A stretch of 64,000 nt of DNA from an uncultured Oscillospiraceae bacterium. Lineage in GTDB: Bacteria; Bacillota; Clostridia; Oscillospirales; Oscillospiraceae. Position 1 is the stretch's first letter, and each line of letters begins with the position of its first letter. Below, in pieces: positions 1 through 25,162 of this stretch. The stretch is from contig CANQXG010000001.1 in the NCBI GenBank assembly GCA_947627735.1, forward strand, positions 16,406 through 80,405, read 5' to 3'. The notes under the pieces were generated by a model. That model was not told where the DNA came from. It made no database searches and was given only the letters and a program-made list of their open reading frames with translations. The position numbers were made by a program, and so were the translations under genes.

Positions 1-794
1 ATGGCCGTTGTGAGCGCGCCCACCACGCAGTACAGCAGAAGGTCCACGAGCTGCTGGGCACGGGCGTCATGCTTTTGCGGGTCATACTTCTTCCCCGCCA
101 GAATGCGCAGGAGGAAGGAGTACACCAGCATCCGCCCGAAGCAGACGATAAATTTCATCAGCGACCGCTTGGACTGGCCCATGATGCGCTTTTTGAATGA
201 GATGGGCACCTCTCTGATGGTGATGGCGCCGCCCTTCATGAGCTTCAGCTTCAGGATGAGTTCTTCCGAGATATCAAAGTTCTCGCTGGTGAGATGGAGC
301 TGCCGCAGGTCCGCTGTCCGGCACAGGCGCAGACTGTCGGAAAAGTCATGGACGTTGACGCCGATGCCGATCCGGAAGCAGAAGTTGAGGACCCTGGACA
401 TGATCTGGGAGCTTTTGGCGTCATCCGTGGACCCGCCCGGTATGTACCGCGAGCCGATGACCACGTCCGTGTCGGGCGTCATCGCCTCATACATCTTCGG
501 TATCTGGGTATAGTCCTGGGACCCGTCCGCGTCCAGGATCAGGAACAGCTCCTCGCCGGCATAACGGATGGCGGTCCTGTAGGCGCCGCCGTATCCCGGC
601 TCCTCCTGGTTCACATACTTAGCGCCGAACGCCCGGCACACCTCCGGCGTGTCATCCGTAGGCTCCGCGGAGTCCACGATCAGATATTCCACCCGGTCGA
701 TGACCAGCGGGTCGATGACCTCTTTCAGATCCGGCAGCAGCCATTTCAGGTTTTCCGCCTCGTGATAGGCCAGGATCGTAACAGTCAGTCCCAC
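1..794 (-). CDS. GT2 polyprenyl-phosphate glycosyltransferase fused to GtrA-like membrane domain (3' truncated by window edge)
   Basis: The reverse strand reads as a family-2 glycosyltransferase of the dolichyl-phosphate-mannose synthase/CsbB type, with N-terminal 'VTILAYHEAENL' and the metal/nucleotide motif 'LDADGS'. After about 240 residues a hydrophobic stretch 'LVDLLLYCVVGALTTA' begins that resembles the first helix of a GtrA/GtcA flippase domain, and the window then ends. Such proteins load a sugar on undecaprenyl phosphate and flip it. I chose the GTG at 794 because GGAGG lies 9 nt upstream; it sits 1 nt after the stop of the YfhO gene. The ORF track misses it because the stop lies outside the window. 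The N-terminal GT2 call is firm; the GtrA fusion is inferred from the partial helix. Confidence 0.85.
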   Translation of the reverse strand, partial: MGLTVTILAYHEAENLKWLLPDLKEVIDPLVIDRVEYLIVDSAEPTDDTPEVCRAFGAKYVNQEEPGYGGAYRTAIRYAGEELFLILDADGSQDYTQIPKMYEAMTPDTDVVIGSRYIPGGSTDDAKSSQIMSRVLNFCFRIGIGVNVHDFSDSLRLCRTADLRQLHLTSENFDISEELILKLKLMKGGAITIREVPISFKKRIMGQSKRSLMKFIVCFGRMLVYSFLLRILAGKKYDPQKHDARAQQLVDLLLYCVVGALTTA

Positions 795-795
795 G

Positions 796-3549
796 TCAGC
801 ACGCCTCCATCTGTCCCCTTTTTTTCTTTCTGTCCCGCACCAGCATCCAGATCACGATCCCGGCGCTGCACACCGTCATCACGGCGCCCAGCCTGATGCC
901 CGGCGAACAGTAGTGGAACTCGATGTCGTGGTGGCCCGCCGTCAGGGGCAGGCACATGAACATGTAGTTGCCTTTCAGTATCTCCGCTTTCTCCCCGTCC
1001 ACCGTGGCGGTCCAGCCCTTGCTGTAGGGCACGCTGACGCACAGGATCTTGTCCTTGGACAGGTCCACCGTACCGGTCAGGCTGTTGGCGCCCCAGTGGA
1101 TGTTCTCCAGCGGCTCCGCCCGCAGGGCCTCCACCTGCTCGGGATAGCTGTCCATGGGCAGGGCATACAGTTCGATGTCATCCAGCTGGGAAGTCCCTCT
1201 GTTGGCGAGTGTGATCGTCAGCGACGTGCGCTCCTGGTCGCTGTAGCCCAGATTTATCAGGTAATCCTCCTGGCCCTCGTAATAGGCGCTGTTAGAAGTA
1301 CAGAGCGTAAAAGTACGGGAAACGCCTCCACACAGCACGCTCACAGAAGCCAATGAATCCGTGACAAGTCCTTTCAGCCGCACATATCCCTCCACACCGC
1401 CAGGCATCGAGAACGAGAGCACGAGCCTGCTGTTGTCCCTATCGGCCCGCAGCTGTCCGTCCTCCCATGCGCAGCCGTCGTAAGTGATCTCAAAGGGGAC
1501 AGGCTTTTCGTCAAACGCCACGCTGCCCGCTCTCAGGTCCGTCGGCTCCTCCAGGGCCACTGTCTGGAGCATGGCCTCCCGTTTCTGAAGGCCGTTCATG
1601 GCGTTCAGCTCTTCATAGGATATCGTGGAATCATAGGTATATCCCCAGGGGAGAGCATAATCATTCTCGTAAATGCAATTTCCGTTGTCCGTTGTTTCTA
1701 TCAAGCTATATCCATAGGGGACATAGGCTGTATTATTCTCTTTTTCAAAATGATACTTTTCCGATAGCAATGTCCCAACGCTGGTCGATTGGCCTGTATT
1801 GAGTATCTTAAAATATACTCCACAGCTCCACTGCTCCAGACCAGTCCAGAAATCGGCGACCGCTGACGGCAGCAGCGAACTATAATCCAGCATCGTGGGG
1901 ATCTGCCATACGCCGGCTGTAAGCGGAACATAAGAAGTGCTGTCTGTCCTTCCCTGCGGCTCGTCCAGCAAATAGGGTTCCAGCTCTCTCTCCGCTACGT
2001 TCTGCAAATAGGCATTTTCATAACCGGCATCAAAGGTAAAGGTGGCCCACCCGACCATGTTCGGTAAAAACTTATAAAGTCCGATCGTGGCCATATTTGC
2101 CGCGATCAGCAATACGATGACGGCCACGCGGATATCGGCGTACATCCTCTCCCGTTTCGCATAGAGCCTGTTTTTTGACCGCTTAGTACCGGGCATGTTG
2201 AGTTCCGGACCGCTCACGATCGCCAGCGCGGCCAGCGTCGCGGCCAAAAAGATCGCTCCCACATATATGTAAGCCGGCGGTTTTGCTTTCTTCAAATAGA
2301 ACAGATTTATGAACAGCAGCGCGGCCATGTAGCATCCGGTGACCGCGATACACATCGTCCGCTGCCGCCCGGAAAACTTCATCAACTGGGGAAGCATCTC
2401 CACCGTGATATATGCGATCAGCAATATCAGGCCAAATGTCCATCGGGATGACGGGTATTGAAAGCCGTTCATCATCATGCTTCCGGCGGGCAGGATATAG
2501 AACAGCAGCCCCACGATCAGCAGCAGCTTCAGCGCTCTCTTTCCCTTGGACAGCATCAATCCGACCAGCGCGAACAGGCAGACTGCCGCAACTGAGAGCA
2601 TGGTGTCACTTGCCGCCGGCACGATCAGTTGGATGATCCTGTTCCAATAAATACTGGCCGCATACAGCCACTGAAATCCCGCGACATGACCATATCTCCC
2701 GGCGTCCAGAAATACCGCCGCCGCGGGGACAAACACGACAGCCGCCAGCCCGAGGCCAAGGGCATAGCCCCCGACGGCACGGAGGACCGTTTTAACAAGT
2801 CCGCGTCCGCCGCTCTCCCGGAACATGCAGTACGCTCTGACCAGCCCATAAACGCCGATCATGATCGTTATCTCGTACAGGAAGTAGTAGCTGCACAGCC
2901 CGCCATAAAATGTGGCAAATATGAGCGTATACGGCCTCTCCTTCCGCAGGACCTTTTCCACGCCCACGACCATCAGCGGCAGGACGATCATCGGACTGAC
3001 AAAATACGGATGCGTGGAAACGGCATACAGTGCGATCCCGCTGAAGCAGTAGATCATACTGCCCGCAAGACTGACCCCCCCCCGCTTGTTAAAATAGTCA
3101 CAAAGATATAGGAAGCTCAATCCGGCAAGGTACAGTCTGAAAAAATCAATGAAAGTGTAGGCGAACTCCCCGTATTTCGTCAGGACCAGCGCGGCGAGAA
3201 GGGAGATCGGGTCCGTATCTCCGTGCGGGTTCAGCGTCCCGATCACATCACTTCCCATGCCCATGCTCAGATCGAACATCGGCACCCCGAACTTCCCGTG
3301 CAGCGCATTGAGGATCACCCGCCGCACTGCCCTGGCGGTATAGATCAGGAATCTGTAATGCTGGTCCCGCGCGTCACCGGCTTTCATAATCGTTCGCGCC
3401 TCGGCCCAAAAGGGACTGAATATGCATACCGAGAGCAGCAGGAAAAGCACGGTGTACATCCCGTACCATATCCATGTCCGCCTGCGGCGCGAACTTAAAT
3501 CCCAGCGTTCCGTCAGCCGGTCATAGGTATTAAAACAGCGATCCGTCAT
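796..3549 (-). CDS. YfhO-family multi-spanning membrane protein (GT-C-type glycosyltransferase), copy 1
   Basis: About 917 residues with many hydrophobic helices in the first two thirds and a soluble beta-rich C-terminal domain, the layout of YfhO proteins. In Bacillus and Listeria, YfhO works with a CsbB-type GT2 and a GtcA flippase to put sugars on lipoteichoic acid; the neighbouring GT2-GtrA gene fits that trio. I chose the second Met (MTDRC) at 3549, 1 nt after the upstream stop, because GGAGGAG lies 8 nt before it. The last ~110 residues are almost identical to copy 2, while the rest is diverged. A run of nine G (C9 on the plus strand, 3075-3083) lies in the coding sequence after residue ~155. 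Confidence 0.85.
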   Translation of the reverse strand: MTDRCFNTYDRLTERWDLSSRRRRTWIWYGMYTVLFLLLSVCIFSPFWAEARTIMKAGDARDQHYRFLIYTARAVRRVILNALHGKFGVPMFDLSMGMGSDVIGTLNPHGDTDPISLLAALVLTKYGEFAYTFIDFFRLYLAGLSFLYLCDYFNKRGGVSLAGSMIYCFSGIALYAVSTHPYFVSPMIVLPLMVVGVEKVLRKERPYTLIFATFYGGLCSYYFLYEITIMIGVYGLVRAYCMFRESGGRGLVKTVLRAVGGYALGLGLAAVVFVPAAAVFLDAGRYGHVAGFQWLYAASIYWNRIIQLIVPAASDTMLSVAAVCLFALVGLMLSKGKRALKLLLIVGLLFYILPAGSMMMNGFQYPSSRWTFGLILLIAYITVEMLPQLMKFSGRQRTMCIAVTGCYMAALLFINLFYLKKAKPPAYIYVGAIFLAATLAALAIVSGPELNMPGTKRSKNRLYAKRERMYADIRVAVIVLLIAANMATIGLYKFLPNMVGWATFTFDAGYENAYLQNVAERELEPYLLDEPQGRTDSTSYVPLTAGVWQIPTMLDYSSLLPSAVADFWTGLEQWSCGVYFKILNTGQSTSVGTLLSEKYHFEKENNTAYVPYGYSLIETTDNGNCIYENDYALPWGYTYDSTISYEELNAMNGLQKREAMLQTVALEEPTDLRAGSVAFDEKPVPFEITYDGCAWEDGQLRADRDNSRLVLSFSMPGGVEGYVRLKGLVTDSLASVSVLCGGVSRTFTLCTSNSAYYEGQEDYLINLGYSDQERTSLTITLANRGTSQLDDIELYALPMDSYPEQVEALRAEPLENIHWGANSLTGTVDLSKDKILCVSVPYSKGWTATVDGEKAEILKGNYMFMCLPLTAGHHDIEFHYCSPGIRLGAVMTVCSAGIVIWMLVRDRKKKRGQMEAC
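3075..3083. repeat. C9/G9 homopolymer tract inside YfhO copy 1
   Basis: Nine consecutive C on the plus strand (G9 on the coding strand) encode part of '..KRGGV..'. The reading frame is open in this sequence. The paralogue at 3551-6292 has no such run at the matching place. Runs of this length are slippage-prone in many bacteria, so it could switch the gene on and off. Confidence 0.9.
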
Positions 3550-3550
3550 C

Positions 3551-6292
3551 TTATTTCTCCTCCGAACTACCATTCACGGCGGCCCTTCGTTTTTTTCTGT
3601 CCCAGAGCAGCATGTAAGCCACGATCCCGGTACAGCACACCGTCATCACGGCGCCCAGCCTGATGCCCGGCGAACAGTAGTGGAACTCGATGTCATGGTG
3701 GCCCGCCGTCAGGGGCAGGCACATGAACATGTAGTTGCCTTTCAGTATCTCCGCTTTCTCTCCGTCCACCGTGGCGGTCCAGCCCTTGCTGTAGGGCACG
3801 CTGACGCACAGGATCTTGTCCTTGGACAGGTCCACCGTGCCGGTCAGGCTGTCGGTCCCCCAGTGGATATTCTCCATAGGCTCCGCCCGCAGGGCCTCCA
3901 CCTGCTCCGGGTAATCATCCATCGGCAGGGCATACAGTTCGATGTCCTCCAACCGAAACGTGCCTTTATCGGGGAAGGTGATCGACAAAGAGTCGCGTTT
4001 CTGGTCGCTGTAGCTCAGATTAAAGAGGTAATCTTCCCGTCCGATATAGTGAGAACTAGATTTCATGGTCGCCTTCAGCGTCCTGGATATGGGGCCGCAA
4101 TCCATTTGTATAGTGATCTCTTTGTTTACTGTGTCATAACCGATCAGACGGACATAACCCTCCACGCTTTCGGGCATATCAAAATGCAGAATGATCTTGG
4201 AGCCTGCACCGTCAACCTTGAGCTGACCGTCCTCCCATGAACAACCTTCACACTCCACCTCGTAAGGCAGTTCCGTTTCCGCAAACTCGATCTCGCACCC
4301 ATCCTCCCAGGACGCTCCCTCCTCCAGCGCGATCGCCTGGAGCATGGCCTGCTGCTTTTGGATCCCATTCAGACCGTCCAGCTGTTCATACGAGATGGCG
4401 TTGTCATAGGTATATCCCCAGGGAAGGGCGTACTCGTTCTCAAAGATGAGGTTGCCCTTTGCCGTTTCCTCGATCAGCCTGTATCCATAGGCCGCATAGG
4501 CGGCCCTGTTTGCGGGTTCCACCTGATACTTTTCCGACAGAAGGGTCCCGGCGATGGTCTGCTGGCTCGTGTCTGAAATGCTGAAATAGAAGGGACACCA
4601 CTCGGTATGCTCTATCGCCTGCCAGAAATCCGACACATCGCCCAGCATCAGAGAGTTGTACTCCAGCATTCCCGGGATCATCCATACAGAGGACGCATTT
4701 CTGAAAAATATCGAACCATCTCCCCTGCCGCTCGGATCGTCCAGCAAATACGGCTCCAGCTCCCGCTCAAGCTGCCGGGTCTCCCCCGTAACACGGGATA
4801 TCTCCGTGCCGGACACCGCATGATTCTTGGTATAGTTCCCCTGATCCGCCGCGAGATAATAGATCCCGTTCGCAGCAACATTGGCAACGACGAGCACGGT
4901 GCACACAGCGATCCGCAGCGTCTGCCCGGTCCGCTTCCCGGCCTGCCGCCCGGCAGGCCGGGGCGCCACATCCCCGATCAGGACAAGAAGCGTCATCACG
5001 AGAAACGCGACGGCGGACAGGATATAGGGAAGCGTCCGGATCTGCTTCACAAAGAGCACCGCCGCCATATAAATGCATGCCAGGCATACACATATGGTCC
5101 TTTGCTTAACGGACATGTCCATGAGTTCCGGCAGCTCGTATACCACGACAAAGGAGAGCAGCAGGGCCAGACCAAAGACCCAGCGCTCACTGGGATACTG
5201 AAAGCCGTTCATAAAGGTGTTCCCGATCGGCGTCAGGAACACGGCGAACAAAACGACGGTCAGGGCCTTCAGCGTCCTTTTCCGCCGGGAGCACAGAAGG
5301 AGCACTACAGCGAACAAACTGATCGCGGCAAGCCCCAAGACGACCGGCGCCGCCATCTGTACTCTGATCATGTTGAATATCCGATTCAATATTTCTCGGG
5401 CACTGTACAGTATCGGTATCCGATTGCGCTCGCCGGACCTCGCCGACTGCAGGAAATTCGTGGCAGCCGGCAGAAACACGACCGCCGCCATGCCAAGGCC
5501 AATACCGTATCCCCACGCGGCACGCCAGGCGGCAAGAACGAGTTCTTTCAGCTTTTTCGTTCTATAGATGTCGAAAAGCCGGATGAGTGCGTATATCCCC
5601 ACCAGGATCGTCATCATGTAAAAATGGTAAAAGCTGCACAGCCCGGCGTAGAAGGTCGCGAAGATGAGCACGTACGGTCTCTCCCGCCGCAGGACCTTTT
5701 CCATGCCCACGACCAGGAGCGGGAGCGTTATCATGGGCGTGACGAAATAGGGATGAAACGTGCTCGAATACATCGCGTATCCGCAAAAGCAGTAGATCAC
5801 GCTGCCGATCAGGGCCGCCCAATCCTTGCACCTGAACGTATGGCAGAGGTAGAGAAAGCTCAGTCCGGCGAGGTACAGCCGCAGGAAAATGAGGAACGTA
5901 TAGGTATATTCACCGTATCTGGTGGGGACCAGCGCCGCGATGAGCATGAGCGGATCGGTATAGCCATGGGGATTCAGAACACCGATCACGTCATTCCCCA
6001 AACCGAGGCTCAGTCCGAAAAGAGGAAAAGAAAAGTCCCCTTTCAGCAGGCTCAGGACAACACGCCGCACACTCCTCCCCAGATACAGCATGAAGGGAAA
6101 ATGCTGCGATCTTCCGTCGCCCGTTTCTATAAACGATTTATGCCCGACTATAAGCGGACTGTATGCCAGCGCGGCCGCCACTATAAACAGCGCCGCATAC
6201 GCCGCGATCAGCAGCCATATCCTCCTGCGGCGGGAGCTGCGGTCATACCGATCCGCCAGACGCCCGCAGGTATTTTCCAGCCTCTCTATCAT
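3551..6292 (-). CDS. YfhO-family multi-spanning membrane protein (GT-C-type glycosyltransferase), copy 2
   Basis: A 913-residue paralogue of the next gene, with the same plan: an N-terminal cytosolic Arg-rich segment (SSRRRRIW), about a dozen membrane helices, then an extracytoplasmic domain and a final helix. The start at 6292 follows GGGGGAG at 4-5 nt. Its C-terminal ~110 residues match copy 1 nearly letter for letter, including 'LTGTVDLSKDKILCVSVPYS'. The two genes are 1 nt apart and surely co-transcribed. The likely role is transfer of an undecaprenyl-phosphate-linked sugar to a wall or capsule polymer outside the membrane. The specificity of either copy cannot be read from the sequence. 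Confidence 0.85.
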   Translation of the reverse strand: MIERLENTCGRLADRYDRSSRRRRIWLLIAAYAALFIVAAALAYSPLIVGHKSFIETGDGRSQHFPFMLYLGRSVRRVVLSLLKGDFSFPLFGLSLGLGNDVIGVLNPHGYTDPLMLIAALVPTRYGEYTYTFLIFLRLYLAGLSFLYLCHTFRCKDWAALIGSVIYCFCGYAMYSSTFHPYFVTPMITLPLLVVGMEKVLRRERPYVLIFATFYAGLCSFYHFYMMTILVGIYALIRLFDIYRTKKLKELVLAAWRAAWGYGIGLGMAAVVFLPAATNFLQSARSGERNRIPILYSAREILNRIFNMIRVQMAAPVVLGLAAISLFAVVLLLCSRRKRTLKALTVVLFAVFLTPIGNTFMNGFQYPSERWVFGLALLLSFVVVYELPELMDMSVKQRTICVCLACIYMAAVLFVKQIRTLPYILSAVAFLVMTLLVLIGDVAPRPAGRQAGKRTGQTLRIAVCTVLVVANVAANGIYYLAADQGNYTKNHAVSGTEISRVTGETRQLERELEPYLLDDPSGRGDGSIFFRNASSVWMIPGMLEYNSLMLGDVSDFWQAIEHTEWCPFYFSISDTSQQTIAGTLLSEKYQVEPANRAAYAAYGYRLIEETAKGNLIFENEYALPWGYTYDNAISYEQLDGLNGIQKQQAMLQAIALEEGASWEDGCEIEFAETELPYEVECEGCSWEDGQLKVDGAGSKIILHFDMPESVEGYVRLIGYDTVNKEITIQMDCGPISRTLKATMKSSSHYIGREDYLFNLSYSDQKRDSLSITFPDKGTFRLEDIELYALPMDDYPEQVEALRAEPMENIHWGTDSLTGTVDLSKDKILCVSVPYSKGWTATVDGEKAEILKGNYMFMCLPLTAGHHDIEFHYCSPGIRLGAVMTVCCTGIVAYMLLWDRKKRRAAVNGSSEEK

Positions 6293-12275: not shown

Positions 12276-13167
12276 TTACCAAATCGTTCTTCCGCCGTCC
12301 AGCACCACCGTCGCGCCGGTCATGTAGGAGCTGGCGTCGGAGAGCATATACAGCACCGTCCCCACATACTCGTCCGGTCGGGACATCCGCCCCATGGGGA
12401 TGAGCTGTGATATCTTCTGCACGAACGCCGGGTCCTGGCCGTTCTCCAGGCTGGCCGGGCACAGGGTGTTGACCCGAACGCCCTTCTTCGCCCAGTAGAC
12501 CGCCAGATACTTCGTCAGCCCCATGATGCCGTGTTTCACCACGGAATAGGACACCGGCTTGACGATCTGCTGGTCCTCCGGGACCCCCTCCTTGCGGTAG
12601 ATGCTCTGGTTGGGCGCGATGATACCGTAATCGGAGGAGATGTTGATGATGACGCCCTTTCCCTGCTCCGCCATCACCTGGCCGAACACCTGGGCGCACA
12701 GGAGCGAACCCGTCAGGCCCACGGCGATGTCCTCGTTCCACATCTCCACGGGGAAGTTGTGGAACTGGATAGCCCCCAGGTTCTTGGACCCGCCCTCCAC
12801 CTTTGGGTTGTTGGCGGCGTTGTTGATGAGGCCGTCGATGTGCCCGTACTTTGAAAGCAGCGCGTCCCGGACCTGACACAGGGCGTCCCGGCTGGTGATA
12901 TCCGTCACGAACGTTTCTATGCGCGCGCCGGGATATGCCTTTTCCAGGTCGGCCTTCGTCCGCTCCATGCCGCCCGGGAATATGTCAAGCAGCACGGCCA
13001 CGCCGTCGCCGGACAGGATCGCCTCGGCGTGCTTCTTCCCCAGCAGTCCTCCGCCGCCGGTGACTATAAAGACCTTATCTCTGATCGAAAACAGCCGCTC
13101 CGCCGCGCCGCGGCCGGCTCTCTCTCTCTCTCTCTCTCTCTCTCGTATGGGTCGGATCGTCTTTCAT
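12276..13167 (-). CDS. PtmA-like short-chain dehydrogenase/reductase, phase-variable and out of frame (OFF) here
   Basis: The SDR reading frame runs from the stop at 12276 up through the Rossmann motif ('VFIVTGGGGLLGKKHAE'), 'LINNAANNPK' and the catalytic Y-x-x-x-K ('SYSVVKHG'). This frame has no ATG, GTG or TTG before the Rossmann motif. The only good start is the ATG at 13167, with AGAGG 7 nt upstream. From it the frame enters a 27-nt GA tract (13144-13118) and leaves in the wrong frame, stopping at TAA 13077-13075 after about 30 codons. Adding one GA unit or removing two would restore a ~297-residue enzyme. The track's 12276-13001 ORF begins at an internal GTG and lacks the cofactor site. 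Family assignment is strong; substrate (nonulosonate precursor) is inferred from the neighbours. Confidence 0.87.
13118..13144. repeat. (CT)13.5 dinucleotide tract in the 5' coding end of the SDR gene
   Basis: A pure 27-nt CT repeat on the plus strand, read as GA on the coding strand. It begins 23 nt after the ATG at 13167. With this length the start codon and the SDR frame are out of register by one base. Confidence 0.97.
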
Positions 13168-13257: not shown

Positions 13258-14352
<1,095 letters not shown>

Positions 14353-14407
14353 TGTTTTTTCTCCTTTTGATCTCAAATGTAATCTTTTGCAGACGTTTTC
14401 TTTTTGC

Positions 14408-15445: not shown

Positions 15446-16206
15446 GGCTGCTCCTTCTCCGCCTCGCACCGGCGCAGATACGCCATGATCTCGTTATCGA
15501 ACAGCGACACCGCCTCCGTCGTTTCCTCAAACTCCCGGATGCTGTCTATGTCGACGGTCTCCGGGACCTCGAATCCGATCATCCTCTCCCCGTGCAGCAG
15601 ATGGTGCTCAACGATGTATTCCGTTCGCAGCACATCCACATACCCGTCCGGGATATACATGGCCGGGAACCCCTGTCGCGGGCCGTTGGCCCGGTCCAGG
15701 GAGATGCCGTTGAACGCCTGATAATAGCCGTCCTCCGAGCGCCAGAACCACTTGAACGGGCACAGGTCCGTTCTGTGGGCCGAGCGCAGGGAATCCGCCG
15801 TGCTGTCGGCGGTCATCTGCCCGATGGCGCTGCGGATCACCGATATCTCCCGCAGCGGCGTGGTGGGCCGCAGATGGACCCAATACTCCGGCAGCACATC
15901 CTCGTGCTCGTCCAGCCAGTGGATGGCGTGGAGCATGAACTCCACATCCGTCGCCATGTTCCCCGCTATCTCCGCCGGGCGCAGGAAGGGCACGTCCGCC
16001 CCGTAGGACCTGGCGATCTGGGCGTACTGCTCCGAGTCGGTGGACACGATGACCCGCCGCACCTCCGGCGTCAGCTTGCCTGCCGCGATGCTGTACGCCA
16101 TGAGCGGGTGTCCCGCCAGGGGCTTGATATTCTTGTTCTTCACGCCCGTGGACCCGGACCGGGCCGGCACGATGGCATAGATCAGGCCCTTTTGGATAGG
16201 CTTCAT
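15442..16206 (-). CDS. neuA: CMP-nonulosonate (acylneuraminate) cytidylyltransferase
   Basis: A 254-residue cytidylyltransferase with the CTP-binding start 'IVPARSGSTGVKNKNI' followed by 'LAGHPLMAYSI', as in NeuA/PseF/LegF. It charges a nonulosonic acid with CMP to make the donor for the sialyltransferase-like protein at 17603-18592. The start at 16206 overlaps the previous stop (ATGA). The family is certain; whether the sugar is Neu5Ac, KDN, legionaminic or pseudaminic acid cannot be decided from sequence. Neighbours (a KdsC-type phosphatase and a PtmA-like SDR) argue for KDN- or legionaminate-type chemistry. Confidence 0.92.
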   Translation of the reverse strand: MKPIQKGLIYAIVPARSGSTGVKNKNIKPLAGHPLMAYSIAAGKLTPEVRRVIVSTDSEQYAQIARSYGADVPFLRPAEIAGNMATDVEFMLHAIHWLDEHEDVLPEYWVHLRPTTPLREISVIRSAIGQMTADSTADSLRSAHRTDLCPFKWFWRSEDGYYQAFNGISLDRANGPRQGFPAMYIPDGYVDVLRTEYIVEHHLLHGERMIGFEVPETVDIDSIREFEETTEAVSLFDNEIMAYLRRCEAEKEQP

Positions 16207-16694
16207 TTCCCGCTGTCCTCCCGACTGTTCAGAATTTCCCGGCACAGCTGGCGGATCACACCGCAGCCGCCGTCTTTCTCGGATACCCAGCCGCTTATGG
16301 CCAGCACCTCCGGCTCCGCGTCCCGCGGGCAGCCGCAGGCGCCCACCGCCTGCATCGCCGCCAGATCGTTGACGTCGTTGCCGATGAACATCGCCTCCTG
16401 GGGCGAGAAGCCGTTTTCCCCGCAGTAATCCAGGACGGCCTGCCGTTTATCCTCCACGGCGTGGAGAACGCCGATCTTCAGCTTCCGCGCCCGCTGCTCC
16501 ACGATGGGATTGACCTCCGTGGAGATGATAACCTGGCGGATGCCGGCCTCCCGGAGCAGCCGCACGCCCGTGCCGTCACCGCGATGGAAGACGGCCGACT
16601 CCTCGCCCGTCTCCGACACGATGACCCGGTTGTCCGTGAGCACCCCATCACAGTCGTAGATGAGGAGCCTGACCCTGGAAAAGTCCATGCTCAC
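16203..16694 (-). CDS. KdsC/YrbI-type HAD phosphatase
   Basis: A 163-residue HAD hydrolase with the aspartate motif 'YDCDGVLTDN' and motif III 'GNDVNDL', the size and sequence pattern of KDO-8-phosphate phosphatase. Beside a NeuB-type synthase it would dephosphorylate a nonulosonate-9-phosphate, as in KDN synthesis. That role is inference from family and context. The start may be the GTG at 16694 (GTGA overlap with the upstream stop) or the ATG two codons later; neither has a strong SD, so it is probably translationally coupled. Confidence 0.9.
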   Translation of the reverse strand: MSMDFSRVRLLIYDCDGVLTDNRVIVSETGEESAVFHRGDGTGVRLLREAGIRQVIISTEVNPIVEQRARKLKIGVLHAVEDKRQAVLDYCGENGFSPQEAMFIGNDVNDLAAMQAVGACGCPRDAEPEVLAISGWVSEKDGGCGVIRQLCREILNSREDSGK

Positions 16695-23066: not shown

Positions 23067-23084
23067 CAAAATAAAGCGTCTGTC
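23067..23084 (+). repeat. Left inverted-repeat arm (18 bp)
   Basis: CAAAATAAAGCGTCTGTC is the exact reverse complement of the right arm at 23329-23346. It lies between the promoter and the first gene's ribosome-binding site, so it is part of the 5' leader. Confidence 0.97.
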
Positions 23085-23110
23085 CAAAAATACTGTACAC
23101 AACATTAGAA

Positions 23111-23139
23111 ATAATAACACATTTCTATATCATTGACAA
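23111..23139 (-). promoter_or_regulatory. Sigma-A promoter inside the invertible segment, pointing into the glycan operon
   Basis: On the minus strand TTGTCA (-35) is followed by exactly 17 nt and TATTAT (-10), each 5 of 6 to consensus. Transcription would start near 23104, cross the left repeat arm and reach the ATG at 23033. The flanking DNA is AT-rich compared with the region. Confidence 0.82.
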
Positions 23140-23201
23140 GTGGAAAACAGCGCAATAACAGCGCCTGATTGTCTGATTTGGAAAATACGGGCATGAACAC
23201 A

Positions 23202-23232
23202 GGGCCGTTGACAAAATCGCTTTCAACGGCCC
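23202..23232. other. Hairpin without T-run inside the invertible segment
   Basis: GGGCCGTTGA and TCAACGGCCC form a 10-bp stem with an 11-nt loop. No T-run follows on either strand, so it is not a standard terminator; it could be a protein-binding palindrome or part of a small transcript. Confidence 0.6.
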
Positions 23233-23261
23233 GCTTCAGTGCGCTCTTAAGGCCCGATCTG

Positions 23262-23295
23262 CCGCCCCGCAAGAAGTCTTGCGGGGCGGTTTTTT
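23262..23295 (+). terminator. Intrinsic terminator inside the invertible segment (plus-strand orientation)
   Basis: CCGCCCCGCAAGA pairs with TCTTGCGGGGCGG and is followed by six T on the plus strand. No plus-strand gene ends here. If the segment flips, this terminator would face minus-strand read-through from the recombinase gene into the operon. Confidence 0.85.
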
Positions 23296-23328
23296 GCTCT
23301 GATCTCCATGAGATATCTGCTCATGATA

Positions 23329-23346
23329 GACAGACGCTTTATTTTG
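23329..23346 (+). repeat. Right inverted-repeat arm (18 bp)
   Basis: GACAGACGCTTTATTTTG, exact reverse complement of the left arm. It ends 9 bp before the stop codon of the recombinase gene (23356). Confidence 0.97.
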
Positions 23347-23355
23347 TTTGCATCG

Positions 23356-24198
23356 CTAACTGACCAGCCCCAGCCGGTCCAGGGTCCGGGCGTGCTCCAT
23401 GCCGGTGGTGATGAGGTATATCCGCGTCGTGTTTATGCTGGAGTGGCCCAGCACGTCCGCCAGCTTCACGATGTCCCGGCAGGCCCGGTAGAACACCGTG
23501 GCGAACAGGTGCCGCAGGTTGTGGGGAAACACCTTCCCCGTTTCCACCCCCGCCAGTGTACATACCGCCTTCATCTCCGCCCATATCTGCCGCCGGCTCA
23601 GGCTCTTTCCGCTTCTGGTGAGAAAGATCTCGCCGGAGGCGATTTTGTTTTTCCTGGCGTATTTCAAAAGCTTCCGGCACAGCTTCCCCGGCAGCATGAT
23701 GGTCCGTATTTTCCCCTTCAGGGCGATCTCCGCCCTGCCCATTTGGGCTGCTTCCACCGTTATGTACCGCACTTCCGACACCCGGATGCCGGTGCCGCAG
23801 ATGGTCTCCATGAGCAGGGCCAGACGCGATTTTCCGCCGTCCTTCGCGGCGGCCACCAGCTTTTCATACTCCGCCTTGGTCAGCTCCCGGCCCGGGTCCC
23901 GGAAGGCCCGGCGCTGGAGCCGCAGGGCCTTGACGCGGCAGTCCTCCCAGCCACAGAACTTGAAAAACGCATTCACCGCCGCCAGCTTGGCGTTCACCGT
24001 CGCCGGGGCATATCCCCGGGCCATAAGCTGTTCCTTCCATGCCACCGCCAGGTCCTTAGTGACCTCCCGCCCGTCCAGCCATGCGGCGAACCCGCGGACG
24101 CTCCGCAGATACGCCTCGACGGTGCCCTCCGCCCGCTCGTCACCGCGAAGGTACGTAGCAAATGCCTCAACGCTCCGGATATCCATCTCTCTACTCAT
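23356..24198 (-). CDS. Catalytically complete tyrosine recombinase (candidate invertase)
   Basis: 280 residues with a core-binding domain ('GTVEAYLRSVRGFAAWL') and an intact catalytic domain: Arg I in 'GTGIRVSEV', 'HNLRHLFAT' (HxLR), 'LGHSSINTT' and the nucleophilic Tyr in 'TTRIYL'. The start at 24198 has AGGAGG 9 nt upstream; the track's longer version runs into untranslated DNA. It sits directly next to the 18-bp inverted repeat and on the same strand as the operon, as for known promoter invertases. A XerC/D or integron-type housekeeping role is less likely given the context. AT-rich DNA at 24226-24240 may hold its promoter, but I see no clear -35. Confidence 0.9.
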   Translation of the reverse strand: MSREMDIRSVEAFATYLRGDERAEGTVEAYLRSVRGFAAWLDGREVTKDLAVAWKEQLMARGYAPATVNAKLAAVNAFFKFCGWEDCRVKALRLQRRAFRDPGRELTKAEYEKLVAAAKDGGKSRLALLMETICGTGIRVSEVRYITVEAAQMGRAEIALKGKIRTIMLPGKLCRKLLKYARKNKIASGEIFLTRSGKSLSRRQIWAEMKAVCTLAGVETGKVFPHNLRHLFATVFYRACRDIVKLADVLGHSSINTTRIYLITTGMEHARTLDRLGLVS

Positions 24199-24284
24199 GC
24201 ATGTCGCCCTCCTCATGAAAGAATGGATATATTTTATATTCATAGAGGCTCCATGGACACACAGGAAATACACACAGAGGATAC

Positions 24285-24317
24285 AAAACGGGACCGGCGG
24301 TGATCCGTCGGTCCCGT
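24285..24317 (-). terminator. Intrinsic terminator after the CHAP gene
   Basis: On the minus strand a 9-bp stem (ACGGGACCG / CGGTCCCGT) is followed by TTTT. It separates the CHAP gene from the recombinase gene. Confidence 0.75.
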
Positions 24318-24352
24318 TCATGCAGATAATCGGTATCCGCGTAAGAGCATTT

Positions 24353-25162
24353 TTATTCCGCCTGCAGCAGCGCCGACCAGGTGCGGCGGCCCACCTGGCC
24401 GTCCCACTGGTCCGGCTCATCGGGAAACAGCGCCTTTTGGGCCTGGAGCACCGCCCTGGCGGTAGCGGGGCCAAAGACGCCGTCCGCCTCCAGGCGCTGC
24501 CCCTCCCCGCCGGTGAAGCCCGCCCCGGCCAGCAGCCGCTGCAGCGTGCGCACCTGGGGTCCGCTGTGGCCCTGAAAGAGCAGATTCGCCTGCACGCTCA
24601 CCGCCGGACCCACCTGGGCGGCGGGAAACCCGCCGGCGGCAGCGCTGCCCGCCTCCCCGTCGAACAACGGATGGCCGAAGCCCGCCACATAGGGATCGTC
24701 CAGCCGGTGGGTGCGCTTCTCCACCCGGTCGCCGGCGTTGCCCTCCACGGTGACCACGGCGTCCGCCAGCACCTGCGTGACGATGCCGGTGTGGACCAGC
24801 GCACCATTTTCCTGGAAGAAAACCTGGTCCCCCGCCCTCGGGCTGCGGTCATACCGCCCCTGGGCCTGATAGTACCCCGCGGAGAAGGGCACCGCCGCCC
24901 CCAAAGGGCCGCTCTGGCACTGGATGCGCTGGGCATCCGGGCCGAAGGCGCGGTAAAAGCACCAGTCCGCGAACACGTCGCACCACTCGAAGCCGTTTTT
25001 GTTGCCGTTATAATACCCCGCCGCGGCCAGGTCCCGGGCGTATTTCGTCCAGTTGGCGCTGCCGGCGTTGGCCGCCGGGTCATCCAGGGAGGCGTTGGAG
25101 GCCTTCTCCCGGTACCCCACCTCCACCAGGGCTATGTCGATCAGTTTTTCTGCGTCGCGCAA
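24353..25162 (-). CDS. CHAP-domain peptidoglycan hydrolase with C-terminal peptidoglycan-binding domain
   Basis: 269 residues. The first ~150 form a CHAP-type amidase/endopeptidase domain, with the Cys in 'FEWCDVFADWCF' and the His in 'GALVHTGIVT'. Residues ~195-265 are a PG-binding-1 domain ('GPQVRTLQRLLAGAGF', 'DGVFGPATARAV'). There is no signal peptide, as in phage endolysins. The start is TTG at 25162: the frame has stops just upstream and no early Met. It could be a prophage remnant or a lysin released by another route. It is followed by its own terminator. Confidence 0.8.
   Translation of the reverse strand: MRDAEKLIDIALVEVGYREKASNASLDDPAANAGSANWTKYARDLAAAGYYNGNKNGFEWCDVFADWCFYRAFGPDAQRIQCQSGPLGAAVPFSAGYYQAQGRYDRSPRAGDQVFFQENGALVHTGIVTQVLADAVVTVEGNAGDRVEKRTHRLDDPYVAGFGHPLFDGEAGSAAAGGFPAAQVGPAVSVQANLLFQGHSGPQVRTLQRLLAGAGFTGGEGQRLEADGVFGPATARAVLQAQKALFPDEPDQWDGQVGRRTWSALLQAE

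Follow-up and report, generated by a model that had tools for sequence, protein, structure and literature searches.

We found a run of nine G inside one of two adjacent YfhO genes of an uncultured Oscillospiraceae bacterium and, judging from its sequence and its surroundings, we regard it as a probable slipped-strand contingency tract in a surface-glycan gene, that is, a switch of a known kind. The DNA analysed (the window) is a stretch of 64,000 nucleotides, positions 16,406 to 80,405 of the forward strand of contig CANQXG010000001.1 in assembly GCA_947627735.1; the source genome (2.36 Mb, GC content 63%) is a draft of 72 contigs, probably a metagenome bin. The run occupies positions 3075-3083, where the forward strand reads nine C, i.e. 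a G9 in the minus-strand frame 796-3573, and no other G or C run in the window exceeds 6. The original observation of nine identical bases in an open frame is confirmed at exactly these positions. The gene, which we call YfhO copy 1, encodes 925 aa (an alternative ATG start lies at 3549); the run falls in codons 164-167, in the 5' fifth of the gene, and the codons across it, AAC AAG CGG GGG GGG GTC, read N162-K163-R164-G165-G166-V167. We computed the frame for other lengths of the run: G9 (the ON frame of the assembly) and G12 both give the full-length protein, while a change of one unit shifts the frame and truncates the protein to 172 aa (G8) or 260 aa (G10). This corrects the earlier expectation of a truncation near residue 155.

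YfhO copy 1 matches the family PF09586 over its full length (E=2.4e-87; residues 43-899 against profile positions 7-835 of 835). Directly upstream on the same strand lies YfhO copy 2 (3551..6292, 913 aa), which is 54% identical to copy 1 and has no G or C run of at least 6. At the other end, the stop of copy 1 adjoins the start of a CsbB-like gene, also on the minus strand, for a GT2-GtrA polyprenyl-phosphate sugar transferase (GT2 1.2e-18, GtrA 5.6e-20), which covers positions 3..794 and extends beyond the window (G000:C1:16033-17199). In Bacillus subtilis, the glycosylation of lipoteichoic acid requires both csbB and yfhO, and a model has been proposed in which CsbB loads the sugar on undecaprenyl phosphate and YfhO transfers it (PMC5836110). 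Overexpression of csbB without yfhO disturbs cell shape, an effect ascribed to a build-up of carrier-linked intermediates (PMC12826051). If it works as in B. subtilis and Listeria (PMC5836110), YfhO copy 1 would be a GT-C type glycosyltransferase for a surface polymer, namely a secondary wall polymer. As in the CsbB-YfhO and GtcA systems of teichoic acid glycosylation (PMC5836110, PMC7389260), a PF09586 protein stands here beside a GT2 polyprenyl-phosphate sugar transferase and is of GT-C type with a large domain ahead of the last membrane helix; unlike in those systems, there are two YfhO copies, the GtrA domain is fused to the GT2 domain, and the cluster also holds NeuB, cytidylyltransferase and polysialyltransferase-like genes. 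This cluster is co-directional, with gaps of at most 82 nt from position 15469 down to 796, and further includes a GFO/IDH oxidoreductase, radical SAM/SPASM proteins, an SDR, epimerases, an aminotransferase, a GHMP kinase and a SIS isomerase. YfhO copy 1 is part of a nonulosonate-type glycan cluster, a gene class that benefits from switching.

The run was noted to be absent from the paralogue, and indeed YfhO copy 2 reads AAG GAT TGG GCG at this site. Likewise, five YfhO relatives (one from species G017, two from G026, one from G006 and one from a Lachnospiraceae MAG) have no run and other residues there. The site is variable, a short polar stretch immediately ahead of a hydrophobic segment. 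The YfhO gene of G006 has a G8 of its own, at codon 20. Among named genomes, copy 1 found a single match, that of the Lachnospiraceae MAG (48% identity). In this MAG (CANQRR010000109.1; L046 796-805 and 6586-6595), the genes on either side of the YfhO homologue each carry a G10 with a change of frame, and one of these genes is GDP-fucose-synthase-like. The literature searched (open-licence papers only) gave no report of phase variation or of such tracts in YfhO.

The absence of the run from the same site in the paralogue and in all the relatives is also what one would expect if the G9 were a chance product of the codons CGG-GGG-GGG-G in a tolerant stretch, maybe somewhat mutable but not kept for switching. 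Codon usage is favourable to such a product, as GGG makes up 23% of the Gly codons and CGG 51% of the Arg codons. When we shuffled synonymous codons inside the genes of the window, a G or C run of at least 9 appeared in 66% of the simulated windows, which means that the G9 is not unusual from codon usage alone. The same shuffles, however, predict 6.2 runs of 7 and 2.2 runs of 8 in the genes of the window, and none of either was observed where some eight were expected. This shows that the genome avoids long runs. Pattern searches of all its contigs gave 61 G runs of at least 7, five of at least 8 and four of at least 9. The 12-fold drop per base from 61 to 5 extrapolates to about 0.4 runs of at least 9 (Poisson P of about 8e-4 for the four seen), hence the tail is not a simple continuation of the ordinary runs. 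This genome-wide excess supports the contingency reading, and a merely accidental run also fits poorly with a cluster that contains three GA tracts and a candidate invertible promoter (see below). On balance, we consider a chance origin unlikely, though still to be taken seriously.

An error of assembly or sequencing in the length of the run deserves a thought as well, since the genome is a draft of many contigs and homopolymers are error-prone. Yet with G9 the frame is open over 925 aa, and besides 9 only lengths differing by multiples of three keep it open; nine is therefore the length expected of a working gene, and we judge an artefact very improbable, more so than any other reading weighed here. 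A G-quadruplex was set aside too: in our own judgement, its four G3 arms are beyond a single G9.

The G9 had been announced as the third contingency tract of an operon with two dinucleotide tracts. Both of these are real, but a third GA tract belongs to the same cluster, 2.2 kb outside the window, so that the G9 is the fourth tract of the locus. These are the only three tracts of (GA)8 or longer in the 2.36-Mb genome; all lie in the glycan cluster and on the coding strand, and two of the three are out of frame. In a radical SAM/SPASM gene (13258..14376, minus strand), a (GA)22 (14258..14301, minus strand) close to the 5' end is in frame (ON). In an SDR gene, a (GA)13 (13118..13143, minus strand), likewise close to the 5' end, is out of frame (OFF) with the gene body downstream (12276..13001, minus strand). 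The (GA)17 (G000:C1:14181-14214, L047) is out of frame in the assembly, in a gene for a GDP-mannose-dehydratase-like epimerase. Species G032 has a co-linear piece of the cluster with proteins 65-93% identical. Its radical SAM homologue carries GA14 and is out of frame (OFF), against GA22 and ON here; its SDR homologue is without the 5' GA segment and instead has an internal C-G9-TT, in frame, where the source genome has G5. The gathering of all the GA tracts in this cluster, two of them OFF, and the differences of length and frame in G032 support the contingency reading of the neighbouring G9.

In the SDR gene, GA13 is directly followed by GCCGGCCGCGG, which resembles what comes after GA22 in the radical SAM gene; GA17 is followed by a shorter GGCCGCGG. 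Since the sequences after the tracts are alike, and since the tract segment of the SDR gene is missing in G032, this suggests that GA tracts were copied, together with their flank, from gene to gene. One can also notice that sequences like GGCCGCGG after GA tracts are common to three genes (13118-13143, 14258-14301 and also L146 9744-9770).

There may be one more kind of switch at the head of the cluster, where we found a candidate invertible promoter (23067..23346): perfect inverted repeats of 18 bp (23067-23084 and 23329-23346) enclose 244 bp. Here the minus strand carries an extended promoter-like site (23139-23111) that points toward the glycan cluster, with a terminator-like hairpin on the opposite side. 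Next to this element are a gene for a tyrosine recombinase (23356-24474) and two frames that resemble integrases.

We then compared 35 species of the genus, one genome each. The number of G tracts of at least 9 per genome ranges from 0 (8 species) to 45, with totals of 45 in G013, 33 in G033, 31 in G030 and 28 in G026; the source genome, with 4, has far fewer than G033, G026 or G013. The counts of G031, G004 and G027 were excluded as support because contamination or artefacts may explain several of their tracts, which lie close to contig ends or in clusters of G-rich stretches. In several species, runs of exactly 8 are far rarer than those of at least 9 (1 against 28 in G026, 3 against 33 in G033, 4 against 31 in G030), and in G005 the relation is reversed (14 of exactly 8, 2 of at least 9), so the preferred length differs by species. 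Among 94 distinct tracts, 71 have length 9, 18 have length 10 and 4 have length 11.

The tract genes with Pfam matches mostly fall into three groups: glycan enzymes (pyruvyl transferase, epimerases, GT1, GT2, FkbM, DUF4422, cytidylyltransferase, capsule protein), surface proteins (subtilase, choline-binding) and enzymes of restriction-modification (MmeI, C5 methylase). A histidine kinase and a symporter are among the few that remain. The sites of G7 runs (n=20), on the other hand, are mostly in housekeeping genes, e.g. those for AlaRS, RecJ, RecG, UvrA, RsmG, TruA and NAD kinase, a comparison which is suggestive and not exact, because these controls come from the source genome and most tract genes from four relatives. 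Homologous genes were found in both states: MmeI-like homologues have C9 and are off in G012, and have C10 and are on in G033, a difference of one G, while of two FkbM genes of G033 one is off with G10 and the other on with G9. A membrane-protein gene of G009 (GT-C-like, by eye) is off. As to such OFF genes, tracts with clear coding on one side only were left uncounted. The gene classes of the tracts, the G8 in the YfhO gene of G006, the on/off pairs and the rarity of exact G8 all support the reading of the G9 as a contingency tract.

Most tracts of the genus are followed by T(T)A: a T stands directly 3' of 82 of the 94, against 16 of 60 control runs of G6-7 from four of the species (p=2e-14). 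Other families of the order share this strong preference of G8-10 tracts for an adjoining T(T)A. Together with the very narrow range of lengths, the occurrence of tracts within promoter spacers and a sample of the order in which H-G9-TA matches 45 times and the reversed pattern about 8 times, this could mean that G8-10 with T(T)A is some other signal (a recognition site, or a site of programmed polymerase or ribosome slippage), of which the YfhO run would be a degenerate member. We find this very improbable: homologues are one G apart and not in the same frame, the preferred length depends on the species (G005), the gene classes are those of contingency loci, and the YfhO tract is followed by TC and not TA. 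Its flank, C-G9-TC (TCAG 3' of the tract), does not fit the class C-G(8-10)-T(T)A, and therefore we do not claim its membership in this class; being off the genus pattern, it is also compatible with a chance run. An argument from the T of this flank was tried and dropped, as the TC dinucleotide is uncommon in the tract class and in the controls alike.

The contingency reading thus rests on the GA tracts nearby, the differing lengths in the cluster of another species and the poly-G class of the genus, and the G9 itself, in frame, in the 5' fifth of its gene and at a variable site, supports it. Against it, a G9 could arise from codon usage by itself, the tract is short and lies at residue 164 rather than at the gene start, its flank is without T(T)A, the source genome has only four such tracts, and the G9 is known in a single length from one genome; the differences of length that we saw are between species only, in a neighbouring GA tract and in homologous G tracts elsewhere in the genus.

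If the G9 is a contingency tract, it would gain or lose one G by replication slippage, the shifted frame would cut YfhO copy 1 to 172 or 260 aa, and a second slip would restore it. The full-length protein would move a sugar from its polyprenyl-phosphate carrier onto a surface polymer, so cells would switch one glycan decoration on and off, a switching presumably favoured by selection. Copy 2, which has no tract, would stay on and may keep a basal decoration. Because the CsbB-like gene starts directly after YfhO copy 1, a slip to OFF might also lower its translation; OFF cells may then make less carrier-linked sugar and be spared a load of carrier-linked intermediates.

Pathogens are known to have switches of this kind, and here the tracts are widespread in the genus. 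Campylobacter jejuni NCTC11168 has 29 loci with polyG/C tracts of at least 7 (PMC4965091), and a phase-variable Type IIG enzyme is known in this species (PMC4889913). As there, the G tracts described here interrupt no intergenic DNA but lie inside the reading frames of genes for surface glycans and Type IIG restriction, and the number of loci is similar in the richest species (33 in G033 and 45 in G013, counting tracts of at least 9); unlike there, the switching is a proposed one, the genome is GC-rich (63%), the genus is unrelated and uncultured, and most tracts have T(T)A at their 3' flank. In the commensal Bifidobacterium breve, a G tract switches sortase-dependent pili ON and OFF, as established with maximum-depth sequencing and mice (PMC9187656). 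In both cases the tract is intragenic and acts by replication slippage, shown there and proposed here, but the target is pili there and a glycosyltransferase here. For such tracts in these gut lineages, no report was found in the open-licence papers searched.

A broader claim seems to us evenly balanced: that the genus has a poly-G "phasome" which extends over the whole genome and equals that of Campylobacter in size (as many as some 45 C-G(8-10)-T(T)A tracts, whose most common length depends on the species and which lie in genes for glycans, surface proteins, bacteriocin-like leaders and restriction), and that three switching modes come together in the glycan cluster, namely an invertible promoter, a G9 tract and GA tracts that seem to have passed from one gene to another. 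According to a review of 2025, multi-locus phase-variable genomes seem confined to pathogens, and the review raises the question of a bias (PMC11868660). If the broader claim is true, a Campylobacter-like tract set in a genus in which we saw no sign of pathogenicity would bear directly on that question. The YfhO tract itself brings a modest gain, in that it adds another likely switch within a glycan cluster and comes with an internal control, copy 2, which does not switch.

Finally, some tracts have other positions than the one in YfhO. A G10 of the source genome (L049 6455-6464, G000:C7:18454-18463) forms part of the spacer that separates TTGCAA from TATAAT, ahead of the gene for a surface protein with choline-binding repeats, and G9 tracts are found in promoter-like spacers of G033 and G006 (L164 2191, L183 2025, L185 600), e.g. 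TTGACA-N8-G9-TACCAT. Others (G9 or G10; L154, L161, L162, L163, L172) are near the start of small genes with leader-like sequences MTDEKKTLRGG...VAGG, perhaps bacteriocin or peptide leaders, and L135 has three tandem small genes, each with a G9. In L149, L150, L155 and L159, glycan-type genes have a G9 or G10 at a distance of about 17-26 codons from their end, just ahead of the next gene, which overlaps, and a control of translational coupling by these late tracts is possible.
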